Shown here: piece after piece, positions 39,107 to 41,519 of the stretch
How positions within the stretch are numbered: the stretch's first letter is position 1
How the letters are laid out: each line of letters starts with the position of its first letter
NCBI RefSeq assembly: GCF_017741815.1
Contig: NZ_JAGHMF010000003.1
Coordinates: 558,001 to 622,000 of the forward strand
DNA length: 64,000 bases
Direction: 5' to 3'
Source of the DNA: Rhizobium sp. 16-488-2b
GTDB lineage: Bacteria > Pseudomonadota > Alphaproteobacteria > Rhizobiales > Rhizobiaceae
Notes under the pieces: model-generated
Databases searched by the model: none
Seen by the model: the letters and a program-made list of their open reading frames with translations, nothing else
Told to the model about the DNA's origin: nothing
Program-made: the position numbers and the translations under genes

Positions 39107-39838
39107 ATGAACCCTTTGCCGCACCAGACTTCCGTGAACGTATACGTAAATGAGGTATCGGGATTAAACACCCAGTTCGATATCTTTCGTTTCATGAAAA
39201 GGCTGACGGAAGCCTACCGGGTTCGCGCCTTCATGGTGCTCAATCTGCCTTCGGCCACGGCGCGCGACCTGCAGAGCAACACCGTCATCACCAACTGGCC
39301 GGCCGAACTGCTCTCGGCCTATGATCATGAGGCGCTGCTGACCAACAGTCCTGTCATGGGCAAGCTGCGCTCGTCGACCGTGCCTTTCTTCAACGACCTG
39401 TCGAAGGCGAAGCTGGATCGATCGGACGGCAAGTCGGGCATCGTCACGGCTCTATTCGAGCGCTTCCGGATGATGCGCTGCGCGTATTTCCCGACGCACG
39501 ATCCCTCGGGCGCCCGCGGCGCAGTCTCCTTCTCCGGCGATCGCGAGCCCTTCGCGCCGGAGGAGATGCTGGAGCTTCATTATATCTCGACGCATGTCTT
39601 CGACAGGCTGGCCGAGATTCGCGCGCTCGACAACAGGGTGGTCGATGCCCTGACAGACCGCGAGATCGATTGCCTCAACTGGACCGCCGCCGGCAAGACC
39701 AGCGTCGAGATCGCCGATATTCTTGGCCTGTCCGAACACACGGTCAATCACTACCTCAACCGTGCCACGAAGAAGCTCGACACCGTCAATCGCACCCAGG
39801 CGGTTGCCAAGGCATTGCGCATCGGCTTGATCAAGTAG
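39107..39838 (+). CDS. LuxR-type solo regulator with divergent autoinducer domain
   Basis: A 243-residue protein. Residues about 20-165 resemble an autoinducer-binding domain (FMKRLTEAYRVRAFMVLNLP, TNWPAELLSAYDHEALLTNSPV). The C-terminal LuxR HTH is clear (LTDREIDCLNWTAAGKTSVEIADILGLSEHTVNHYLNRATKKL). Trp and Tyr at TraR-like positions are kept, but the Asp of the acyl-homoserine-lactone DP motif appears replaced (NSP) and the following Trp region reads VPFF. No luxI gene is nearby. It may bind a different ligand or none. Confidence 0.8.
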   Translation: MNPLPHQTSVNVYVNEVSGLNTQFDIFRFMKRLTEAYRVRAFMVLNLPSATARDLQSNTVITNWPAELLSAYDHEALLTNSPVMGKLRSSTVPFFNDLSKAKLDRSDGKSGIVTALFERFRMMRCAYFPTHDPSGARGAVSFSGDREPFAPEEMLELHYISTHVFDRLAEIRALDNRVVDALTDREIDCLNWTAAGKTSVEIADILGLSEHTVNHYLNRATKKLDTVNRTQAVAKALRIGLIK

Positions 39839-39851
39839 CTGCCCAAATAGT

Positions 39852-39868
39852 GTGCGCTATTGTCGCAC
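39852..39868. promoter_or_regulatory. Inverted repeat, possible enhancer-binding site
   Basis: GTGCG-CTATTGT-CGCAC is perfect. It is centred about 90 bases upstream of the -24 element at 39950, a normal position for a sigma-54 enhancer-binding protein. A second inverted repeat, CGCCG-GGGCAT-CGGCG, lies at 39883-39898. The protein that would bind is unknown; neither matches the standard NtrC or NifA consensus well. Confidence 0.35.
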
Positions 39869-39947
39869 CAGCCCAAAAAATGCGCCGGGGCATCGGCGAA
39901 TGCTGGCTCTTTCGCTGAGGTTTCCGCCGAATTCGCCCTATTTCGAG

Positions 39948-39965
39948 TTGGCACGCTTCCTGCTT
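39948..39965 (+). promoter_or_regulatory. Sigma-54 (RpoN) promoter
   Basis: TTGGCACGCTTCCTGCTT matches the consensus TGGCACG-N4-TTGC(A/T) in all but one position (CTGC for TTGC). The invariant GG (39950-39951) and GC (39962-39963) have the exact 10-bp spacing. Transcription would start near 39975 and run rightwards into a non-coding region. Confidence 0.6.
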
Positions 39966-39974
39966 CCTAATTGT

Positions 39975-40087
39975 CAGCGGTCCAGAGGGGACTTGGCAAC
40001 GACGCCATAGTAAAGGCGCGACCTTCACCCGCCGCTCGATCCCGGCAGCCCTGTGCGCTGGACATCGAGCGGCGGGTTGTTGTTTTT
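39975..40087 (+). ncRNA. Candidate sigma-54-dependent small RNA
   Basis: The interval from the predicted start of the sigma-54 promoter to the T-run after a strong hairpin is about 113 bases. No credible reading frame lies in it. Its first half is predicted to be mostly unpaired (purine-rich AGAGGGGAC, then AACGACGCC), and its second half is the terminator hairpin. The mrp gene starts 265 bases further on and lies beyond the terminator. Start, end and function are inferred. Confidence 0.45.
40028..40087 (+). terminator. Intrinsic terminator
   Basis: CCCGCCGCTCGAT (40028-40040) and ATCGAGCGGCGGG (40064-40076) form a perfect 13-bp stem. The 23-base loop can pair further (CAGC-N7-GCTG). TTGTTGTTTTT follows. 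It could end the proposed small RNA or, less directly, the LuxR-type gene. Confidence 0.8.
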
Positions 40088-40352
40088 GGGATACGCCTCC
40101 CGGCCTATAAGCGCGAGCTGATGCATTTTTCCCTTAATTCTGACTGGTCTTTCAGATCTGACGCCCTAGAAACCCCTTATCCACTTGGGTGACCGTTGTG
40201 CTATCAGGGCGAAAGCCCGGCGGACTTGATGGCTCAGCGGTCTCCTTTGGAGATTCCCCCCTTCTTCCCAGGTTTTTGCCTAGCACCGATTTTGTTTGGC
40301 GATCACTTCGCGCTCCTCTATCTACAGAGCCAGATAAGGGTGTGAGGACGAT
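40088..40352. other. Leader region of mrp, possibly structured
   Basis: No gene is seen. CGCCCT (40162-40167) and AGGGCG (40206-40211) can close a stem that encloses a smaller ACCCC/GGGT pairing, followed by AAGCCCGGCGG and GGCTCAGCGG. No known riboswitch class was recognised. GTGAGGAC just before 40353 is the mrp ribosome binding site. Confidence 0.35.
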
Positions 40353-41519
40353 ATGACTGAAGTCACCAAGGAACAGGTGCTGGAAACGCTGGCAACGGTG
40401 CGCGGCCCCGATCTCGAACATAATATTGTCGAGCTCGGCATGGTCTCCGATGTGTTCATCTCGGATGGCAAGGTCTACTTCTCGATTACCGTCCCCGCCG
40501 AGCGCGCCAAGGAGCTGGAGCCGCTGCGGCTCGCCGCCGAGCGCGTCATCAAGGAAATGCCCGGCGTCAAGGGCGCGCTGGTCGCGCTGACCGCCGACAA
40601 GAAGGGCGCGCCATCGGGCGCTGCCACCGCCCGCACGCCACCCCAGGCTGGTCACGGCCATGCCGGCCATGGGCATGAAGGCCACGCACACGCGCAGCCG
40701 CAGCAGCGTGCCGGCAAGATCGGCGTGCCCGGGATCGGTGCCATCGTCGCCGTCGCCTCCGGCAAGGGCGGCGTCGGCAAGTCCACCACATCGGTCAACC
40801 TTGCGCTCGGCCTGCAGGCAAACGGCCTGCGCGTCGGCATTCTCGACGCCGATATTTACGGCCCGTCCATGCCGCGCCTCCTGCAGATCTCCGGCCGCCC
40901 GACGCAGACCGATGGCCGTATTATCAATCCCATGGAGAATTACGGTCTCAAGGTCATGTCGATGGGCTTCCTCGTCGATGAGGAAACCGCGATGATCTGG
41001 CGCGGCCCGATGGTGCAGTCGGCGCTGATGCAGATGCTGCGCGAAGTCGCCTGGGGCGAGCTCGACGTTCTCGTCGTCGACATGCCGCCCGGCACCGGCG
41101 ACGCGCAGCTCACCATGGCCCAGCAGGTGCCGCTCGCCGGCGCCGTCATCGTCTCGACACCTCAGGACCTGGCACTCATCGATGCCCGCAAGGGGCTGAA
41201 CATGTTCAAGAAGGTGGAAGTGCCGGTTCTCGGCATCGTCGAGAATATGAGCTACTTCATCGCCCCCGATACCGGCGCGCGCTACGACATTTTCGGCCAT
41301 GGCGGCGCCCGCGCCGAAGCCGACCGCATCGGCGTGCCCTTCCTCGGCGAAGTGCCGCTGACGATCAACATCCGCGAAGCCTCCGACGCCGGCACCCCGC
41401 TGGTCGCCAGCGAGCCGAACGGCATTGTCGCCGGCATCTATCGCGACATCGCCGCCAAGGTCTGGGCGCAGCTCGAGCAGAAGCCGCAGCGTGCCGCTCC
41501 CGCGATCGTATTCGAGTAA
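40353..41519 (+). CDS. mrp: Mrp/ApbC-type P-loop ATPase, iron-sulfur carrier family
   Basis: A 388-residue protein. An N-terminal MIP18/DUF59-like domain (residues 5-80) is followed by a His-rich linker (HGHAGHGHEGHAHA at 101-114) and the deviant Walker A ASGKGGVGKSTTSVNLA near residue 137. DADIYGPSMPR and VDMPPGTGDAQLT follow. Mrp/ApbC proteins transfer Fe-S clusters. The CxxC pair that usually binds the bridging cluster is not present; the corresponding loop reads MSYFIAPDTGARYDIFG. GTGAGGAC precedes the ATG. Confidence 0.92.
   Translation: MTEVTKEQVLETLATVRGPDLEHNIVELGMVSDVFISDGKVYFSITVPAERAKELEPLRLAAERVIKEMPGVKGALVALTADKKGAPSGAATARTPPQAGHGHAGHGHEGHAHAQPQQRAGKIGVPGIGAIVAVASGKGGVGKSTTSVNLALGLQANGLRVGILDADIYGPSMPRLLQISGRPTQTDGRIINPMENYGLKVMSMGFLVDEETAMIWRGPMVQSALMQMLREVAWGELDVLVVDMPPGTGDAQLTMAQQVPLAGAVIVSTPQDLALIDARKGLNMFKKVEVPVLGIVENMSYFIAPDTGARYDIFGHGGARAEADRIGVPFLGEVPLTINIREASDAGTPLVASEPNGIVAGIYRDIAAKVWAQLEQKPQRAAPAIVFE

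Follow-up and report, generated by a model that had tools for sequence, protein, structure and literature searches.

The 64,000-nt stretch of DNA analysed here (the window) contains a 514-nt gap between a gene for a LuxR-type regulator (39107..39838, plus strand) and the mrp/ApbC gene for an Fe-S carrier (40353..41519, plus strand; ApbC model 362 bits, cut-off 348). Within this gap lie a promoter (from 39948), a start inferred at 39975 and a terminator whose stem ends at 40077, which raises the question whether the gap holds an RpoN-controlled small RNA gene, as the original prediction had proposed, and what such an RNA would do. The regulator gene lies outside the RNA, and both neighbours are considered as context only. 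On sequence grounds the first part of the question can be answered with near certainty: the gap very likely holds a conserved gene for an sRNA, preceded by NtrC-type boxes and a sigma-54 promoter, an inference that rests on sequence alone.

The sRNA gene, its structure and its distribution

The sigma-54 promoter occupies 39948..39964 of the plus strand, with the GG element at 39950-39951 and the GC element at 39962-39963. Its sequence, TTGGCACG-N4-CTGCT, has one mismatch to YTGGCACGN4TTGCW and had been described as near-perfect. Taken alone, such a match is at chance level: allowing up to two mismatches, the pattern occurs three times in the window versus 6.3 times in shuffled sequences, and TGGCAYGN5TGCW yields 18 matches in the window's own genome, exactly as many as the reversed control. 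The case for the promoter thus depends on comparison between genomes. All 110 loci fetched from the genus, which were retrieved with a similarity query that itself contains the promoter, carry TGGCAYRN5TGC with exact -24/-12 spacing. It is this conservation across the genus that makes the match significant, and the predicted promoter with its exact spacing is confirmed in this respect. The RNA gene therefore has GG and GC at exactly the -24/-12 distance of a sigma-54 promoter, while its dependence on RpoN is inferred from the sequence.

Promoter geometry, terminator, fold and the covariance model R1 together delimit an RNA of about 113 nt (39975..40087, plus strand). The start at 39975 was not mapped but placed 12 nt downstream of the GC element by inference. 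The RNA folds with -55.3 kcal/mol (z = -3.8), outperforming 200 of 200 shuffles, and R1, in which the window copy is included, assigns this copy 45.5 bits. Hairpin 1 (39979..39993, plus strand; GGUCC-AGAGG-GGACU) begins about 4 nt past the inferred start. In an alignment of 47 genus copies that were not selected for this hairpin (A1) it is nearly invariant including the loop, of which four bases never change and the fifth is kept in at least 90% of the copies. Some species have CCCAGAGGGGA as hairpin 1, and at locus L381 the second stem pair is changed from G-C to A-U with the inner 11-mer retained.

Hairpin 2 (40000..40020, plus strand) has a variable stem with compensatory changes, as seen in a second alignment (A2) of 63 diverse copies selected on the hairpin-1 motif. 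Two-sided changes were found for five of its six pairs, and 95.9% of the hairpin 1 cells are paired in A2. The A2 structure as a whole pairs 89% of cells, compared to 30-53% when it is slid along the alignment. None of 500 shuffles reached the values for paired cells, double-changed cells or covariation score; 80 of 500 reached the count of double-changed pairs and 54 of 500 the number of pair types, so that two of the five measures are not beyond shuffles. RNAalifold put hairpins 2 and 3 in the wrong place on A1. The counts for hairpins 1 and 2 therefore come from A2 and follow a structure that we had named ourselves, which such a count favours.

The terminator hairpin (40027..40077, plus strand) is formed by arms at 40027-40040 and 40064-40077, followed by TTGTTGTTTTT, with the T-rich tail reaching 40087. 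The predicted intrinsic terminator was thus confirmed, with a stem of 14 bp instead of 13 bp. A simple terminator scan with a loop limit of 8 gave no call for it. A loose scan detected a hairpin with a T-rich tail in 108 of the 110 genus loci, not always at a homologous place. The terminator loops of many genus copies contain the anti-SD-like sequence CUUCUCC. Pairing of hairpin 1 with this loop of the same RNA was considered by eye only, and L001 is without that loop. The apex GAUYCCGGAUGUACGGACAC is common to loci L371-L376, L379 and L382 from several genera and is absent from the window copy. The original prediction had also stated that no reading frame lies between promoter and terminator. 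One mechanical TTG-start frame of 73 amino acids (39971-40192) does cross the RNA; the conservation observed is that of the hairpins, and no formal coding test was made.

The 161-nt unit matches 136 of 148 genus genomes, the 110 fetched loci being a part of these, and the conservation in relatives that the original prediction had required is present. With model R1 (E ≤ 0.001) matches were obtained in 161 of 394 genomes of the family and 52 of 109 genera; among the weak matches, many of the 20 fetched represent a variant RNA type described below. A strict pattern of promoter plus hairpin matched 44 of the 247 family genomes scanned, among them G162, where the match is a glnB leader. Throughout the order the strict pattern matched 6 of 297 genomes, five in the family and one (G499) in another family. 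Titled records with pattern matches included Rhizobium, Neorhizobium, Shinella, Ciceribacter, Pseudorhizobium, Pararhizobium, Xaviernesmea, Agrobacterium vitis, Nitratireductor and Mycoplana. This organism list is partial, and the scan also gave chance matches in unrelated taxa. From one tally 19 loci were excluded, namely four genus loci in which the hairpin fails the strict pattern (L050, L071, L082, L096) and 15 pattern matches (11 in records titled as other taxa, a further three, L229, L234 and L255, and one from Shinella, L190). The glnB leader (L128), L168 and L232 were removed as chance matches before the tallies of 242 loci. Outside the genus, copies were found with patterns or a model containing hairpin 1, and the constancy of this hairpin there is consequently in part a product of selection.

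The window's own genome has one copy of the sRNA. In 107 of the 110 genus loci mrp lies downstream, starting 237-540 nt from the promoter; the short stretches fetched for the other three (L058, L069, L085) gave no mrp match. The luxR gene was not matched in upstream stretches of about 550 nt at L073, L088, L097, L104 and L110, and is more than 1 kb away from the sRNA at L162 and L149; at the other genus loci it was matched upstream. In several copies from other genera mrp was not found within the DNA fetched, 8 kb in the case of L142. Genomes called Sinorhizobium-like here on account of their gene order show luxR, luxR, sRNA, mrp (L371-L376, two genera); the predicted RNA in L374 has about 124 nt. 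No name above a cut-off was obtained for the LuxR-type protein of the window, the best NCBIfam match being VisR with 94 of 300 bits. Judged by position, its Sinorhizobium counterparts might be SMc00877/SMc00878, which have been termed AviR-like (PMC5977203). The sRNA-mrp loci L264 (G499) and L073 (G122) are nearly identical and without luxR in the fetched stretch, and the two genomes are assigned to two different families. Transfer or misplacement may possibly account for this.

The sRNA is most likely the orthologue of SmelC165 of S. meliloti, without proof from the sequence itself; the assignment is inferred from the shared promoter type, RNA length, number of copies, taxonomic range and conserved gene neighbourhood. 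SmelC165 is encoded in one copy on the plus strand (910182-910297), and RpoN is its only predicted promoter (Table 1, PMC7143759). By its coordinates it has 116 nt. Its family has members in Sinorhizobium, Rhizobium and Agrobacterium, with the exception of A. tumefaciens and A. radiobacter, and the microsynteny of both neighbours is complete (PMC3927594). The window RNA shares the RpoN promoter, the single copy, a length of about 113 nt and the conserved luxR and mrp neighbours. The parts of the two papers bearing on SmelC165 do not name these neighbours, nor do the papers state a function, NtrC boxes or AbcR pairing, which are proposed here. The catalogue entry with its predicted RpoN promoter was thus known, and the AbcR complementarity is new.

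MmgR (alpha-r8), which the original prediction had raised as a possibility, was ruled out: there is no Rfam match, and the coordinates of SmelC165 differ from those of MmgR/SmelC689. The features disagree as well, MmgR being about 77 nt long with an anti-SD in its first loop, compared to about 113 nt and an AGAGG loop 1 in the window RNA. At gathering score Rfam gave no match, either in the window or in five relatives, and ar15 (RF02345) and ar14 (RF02344) were absent at the locus up to E = 10. Rhizobia have nitrogen-regulated sRNAs in MmgR, induced by NtrC (PMC7143759), and NfeR1 (alpha-r14), repressed by NtrC (PMC10746234). Both carry anti-SD motifs, whereas the window RNA has an SD-like complement and differs in locus, length and seeds. 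NrsZ (P11) of Pseudomonas is a nitrogen-controlled sRNA. It resembles the window RNA in its working, as an sRNA gene with a -24/-12 promoter and nitrogen control, but homology could not be shown, as its match was sub-threshold (14.7 bits, gathering score 70) with identities mainly on the promoter-like part. Sub-threshold matches to miRNA and SNORD88 families were located on the terminator palindrome and were dismissed.

NtrC-type boxes upstream of the promoter

Two inverted repeats 50-100 bases upstream of the promoter had been proposed as sites for an enhancer-binding protein. Repeats are indeed present, the conserved ones being two 17-bp imperfect palindromes 62-108 bp upstream of the -24 element, and the proposed role is supported; their NtrC type had not been identified in that prediction. 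Box 1 (39840..39856, no strand assigned; TGCCCAAATAGTGTGCG, TGC-N11-GCG) is centred at about -127 and scores 15.7 bits with the full matrix and 15.6 bits with a matrix trained on non-genus copies only. Box 2 (39870..39886, no strand assigned; AGCCCAAAAAATGCGCC) is centred at about -97, 30 bp from box 1. Its score of 10.1 bits with the full matrix falls to 8.8 with the non-genus matrix, just under the tandem threshold of 9 bits.

The palindrome motif TGCnCAAAATTTGnGCA was obtained de novo upstream of 87 non-redundant copies. At least two sites are present in 68 of these 87 regions, mostly between -80 and -180, versus a mean of 5.2 and a maximum of 13 in shuffles. This count used a matrix trained on the same 87 regions. 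With the held-out matrix, trained on 54 non-genus copies only, tandem sites turned up in front of 21 of the 33 genus copies and 16 of the 20 glnK-type genes; background windows had them in 5 of 3532 cases, and no shuffle set gave more than one. Here, glnK-type stands for the second PII gene, named from its lower model score; amtB was seen beside it only in the window's own genome. Upstream of glnB of this genome the held-out matrix found no tandem boxes. TGC-N11-GCA has been described as the NtrC motif (PMC10746234), and the genome encodes a true NtrC (697.7 bits, cut-off 558.6) among four strong matches to sigma-54 activators. By our reading of names, and for the first by its place near NtrC, the other three are NtrX, a DctD-type and a TacA-like activator.

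DctD was considered as the activator and rejected. The repeat TGTGCG-N7-CGCACC (39851-39869) resembles a DctD site, but it has not been retained in relatives such as L010, and the region upstream of dctA in the own genome does not score with the held-out NtrC matrix. For the family as a whole the presence of NtrC-type boxes is established, with a strong box 1 and a weak box 2 in the window copy; binding or expression data are not available. A tiling array study of R. etli reported no RpoN sites upstream of the ncRNAs it detected (PMC2881028), a finding that counts against the model.

Complementarity to the aSD2 region of AbcR

The original prediction contained no target. We found that the 11-mer UCCAGAGGGGA within hairpin 1 (39981..39991, plus strand) matches AbcR (ar15) at the aSD2 seed, being perfectly complementary to UCCCCUCUGGA there. 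The 9-mer CCCCTCTGG, complementary to the invariant hairpin, occurs at 20 places in the own genome and is not enriched genome-wide (26 in the reversed control). Five of these places are ar15 copies and one is the sRNA itself, and only those six have the full UCCCCUCUGGA. The five copies share the element GTTCCCCTCTGGAGGTT and were identified by Rfam as ar15 (AbcR) with 46-117 bits at a gathering score of 40. Two of the five ar15 copies of this genome are arranged in tandem (handles L393, L400, L407, L409), and six ar14 matches, one below cut-off, are also present (L411-L416). In S. meliloti the aSD2 of AbcR, UUCCCCUC, lies within a stretch called ultraconserved, serves regulation of SMa0495, prbA and aapQ and is the seed for repression of amino-acid transport mRNAs (PMC8844928). 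UCCCCUCUGGA overlaps this aSD2.

Conservation of the complementary stretch was assessed first of all in the genus, where the loci were not selected on hairpin 1. The core CCAGAGGGG is present in 106 of 110 loci and the 11-mer in 85. The remaining 25 loci deviate mostly at an end, where the first U is changed to C with loss of one pair, or have A changed to G in the loop or at an end, giving a wobble; L089 has an internal mismatch. The 11-mer is exact in 198 of the 242 canonical loci, which were selected on a looser hairpin pattern. All of the best 30 matches of R1, a model whose source copies had been chosen by their hairpin-1 motif, have promoter and core, and 29 have the 11-mer.

At least 11 contiguous pairs with one AbcR copy are expected with P = 0.00049 for composition shuffles of the 15-nt hairpin and P = 0.00014 for random hairpins. 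This null is partly post hoc, as the genome had been viewed first, and it is not corrected for other RNAs. A crude net pairing energy of -9.1 kcal/mol remains after both sites are opened, and cofolding selects pairing of hairpin 1 with AbcR. With the five ar14/NfeR1-type copies above cut-off, complementarity extends over 4-6 nt at most, and with the 5' half of AbcR, which includes aSD1, over 4 nt. Pairing of the first 50 nt of the RNA with the ar14 copies of the own genome was no better than with shuffles, and these were rejected as partners.

In 3.54 Mb of fetched DNA (both strands counted, chosen for sRNA and ar15 loci, with a simple context rule) UCCCCUCUGGA occurs 195 times as antisense of the sRNA, 45 times in ar15-like contexts and once elsewhere, with 0.8 expected. 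The single place elsewhere belongs to genome G721, where a sigma-54 RNA has the complementary 11-mer at the tip of its terminator hairpin. AbcR keeps UCCCCUCUGGA in all 14 tested genomes with the canonical RNA; of 15 genomes picked because the canonical copy is missing or its hairpin altered, 9 keep it too. Fisher's test for this difference gave P = 0.017; it was not relied on, being confounded by phylogeny and with hairpin 1 left unchecked in G226 and G321. According to the nine latter genomes, AbcR is constrained by other partners as well. Conserved complementarity, as expected for an AbcR sponge, is thus met, while titration or decay of AbcR in the cell is inferred.

Sponge model, rival explanations and a second RNA type

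Sponging of AbcR is the best-supported mechanism, and we give it a modest preference in the absence of expression, binding or mutant data. In the model, which we hold at a probability of about 0.64, the RNA is the product of a stand-alone sRNA gene and ends at its own terminator. Under nitrogen limitation NtrC would act on the tandem boxes to activate sigma-54 RNA polymerase, as inferred from the motifs. The SD-like mimic UCCAGAGGGGA in the 5' hairpin may then pair with aSD2 of AbcR1/AbcR2; the complementarity is shown, the pairing in the cell is inferred. Titration of AbcR would lift repression of mRNAs for amino-acid and other ABC transporters, as inferred from the published AbcR regulon, and nitrogen scavenging would be raised when nitrogen is short. 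A bolder reading, towards which the balance also leans slightly, is that of a core-genome sponge disarming AbcR1/2 in many Rhizobiaceae genera, the 11-nt mimic being selected for AbcR pairing.

If true, nitrogen status would be wired directly to nutrient uptake through an NtrC-controlled sponge, and SmelC165 would gain a function. In S. meliloti 225 mRNAs were captured by AbcR1 and 356 by AbcR2, and the authors described the hunt for sponges of AbcR as open (PMC8844928). A sponge offers one reason for the strict conservation of AbcR beyond aSD2; that stretch is also kept in some genomes without the canonical sRNA. The increase of branched-chain amino-acid transporters under nitrogen stress in S. 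meliloti RNA-seq data (PMC8829014) agrees with the model. As abcR1 itself is induced under nitrogen limitation when phosphate is also limiting (PMC8829014), the circuit is possibly not one of simple relief. The term SmelC does not appear in that study. A precedent comes from enteric bacteria, in which AgvB and SroC are sponges of GcvB. A GcvB sponge derived from a target mRNA has been described (cited in PMC8844928), and GcvB, like AbcR, is a repressor of ABC transporters titrated by complementary RNA. AgvB and SroC are unrelated in lineage and sequence, and the putative sponge described here would differ from them in belonging to the core genome and in having a sigma-54 promoter preceded by NtrC-type boxes.

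The most serious rival, which we consider unlikely, accepts the same NtrC/sigma-54 sRNA but has it act as ordinary antisense on mRNAs or by binding a protein, the AbcR match being incidental, for example as an SD-like copy. As aSD2 is itself an anti-SD, conserved purine-rich loops will often complement it. An antisense role is further supported by the CUUCUCC sequences of the terminator loops and by CCCCTCTGG places near possible starts of long frames, five of them with a start at most about 50 nt downstream (L397, L400, L406, L407, L408) and one with a start 24 nt upstream (L403); L400 and L407 are ar15 copies themselves. On the other hand, the match of 11 nt extends past aSD2 into the AbcR flank, ar14 and the AbcR 5' half give no more than 4-6 nt, and loop bases that the stem does not need barely vary in the 47 genus copies. 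It is even less probable that the complementarity works in the reverse direction, with AbcR as the regulator marking the sRNA for decay without any effect on AbcR. The direction cannot be read from the sequence and the same pairing would be seen, but we noticed no conserved frame in the RNA, and the fact that it has NtrC-type control of its own points to it as the active partner; both points are inferences only.

Two further explanations concern the neighbours. A leader or attenuator of mrp, with a sigma-54 transcript reading through the hairpin into mrp in some condition, is very improbable. The position of mrp downstream in nearly all genus loci speaks for it; the strong terminator about 260 nt before mrp in the window and the copies of other genera without mrp in the fetched stretch speak against it. 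The alternative named in the original prediction, that the hairpin serves as terminator of luxR and the promoter resemblance arose by chance, can be all but excluded. The pattern alone would allow for it, but the promoter spacing is kept at every genus locus, the RNA is conserved across genera and luxR is not adjacent in some loci. Persistence of the unit where luxR is distant or unmatched, or where mrp was not found, disfavours this reading. The prediction of an RpoN-controlled sRNA gene is accordingly supported by comparison, with promoter, start distance, hairpins and terminator kept over many genera, and AbcR sponging remains the preferred function of this RNA.

A second type of sigma-54 sRNA was also observed, with a hairpin 1 lacking the AGAGG loop, a hairpin 2 like GCGUCCAANGACGGGCGC and often CCCGGAUGNACGGA as terminator apex (L377, L378, L386, L387, L447, L448, L450, L451, L453, L455, L457, L462, L464, L466). 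Other genera have this type, and Sinorhizobium-like genomes carry it as a second copy. NtrC-type sites precede it at L386, L387, L447, L450, L453, L455 and L457, and weakly at L462; none were found at L451, L464 and L466. Some of the loci scanned had only short upstream stretches. In genome G162 (L128/L296) a glnB gene has a sigma-54 promoter directly followed by GGCCCAGAGGGGGCC, a look-alike of hairpin 1 that is absent from the other PII loci examined. The inspected copies of the second type are without the 11-mer except in G721 (L465), where UCCAGAGGGGA is missing from hairpin 1 and is found at the terminator tip, as if the mimic had been relocated from hairpin 1 with its function kept, which is no more than a possibility.
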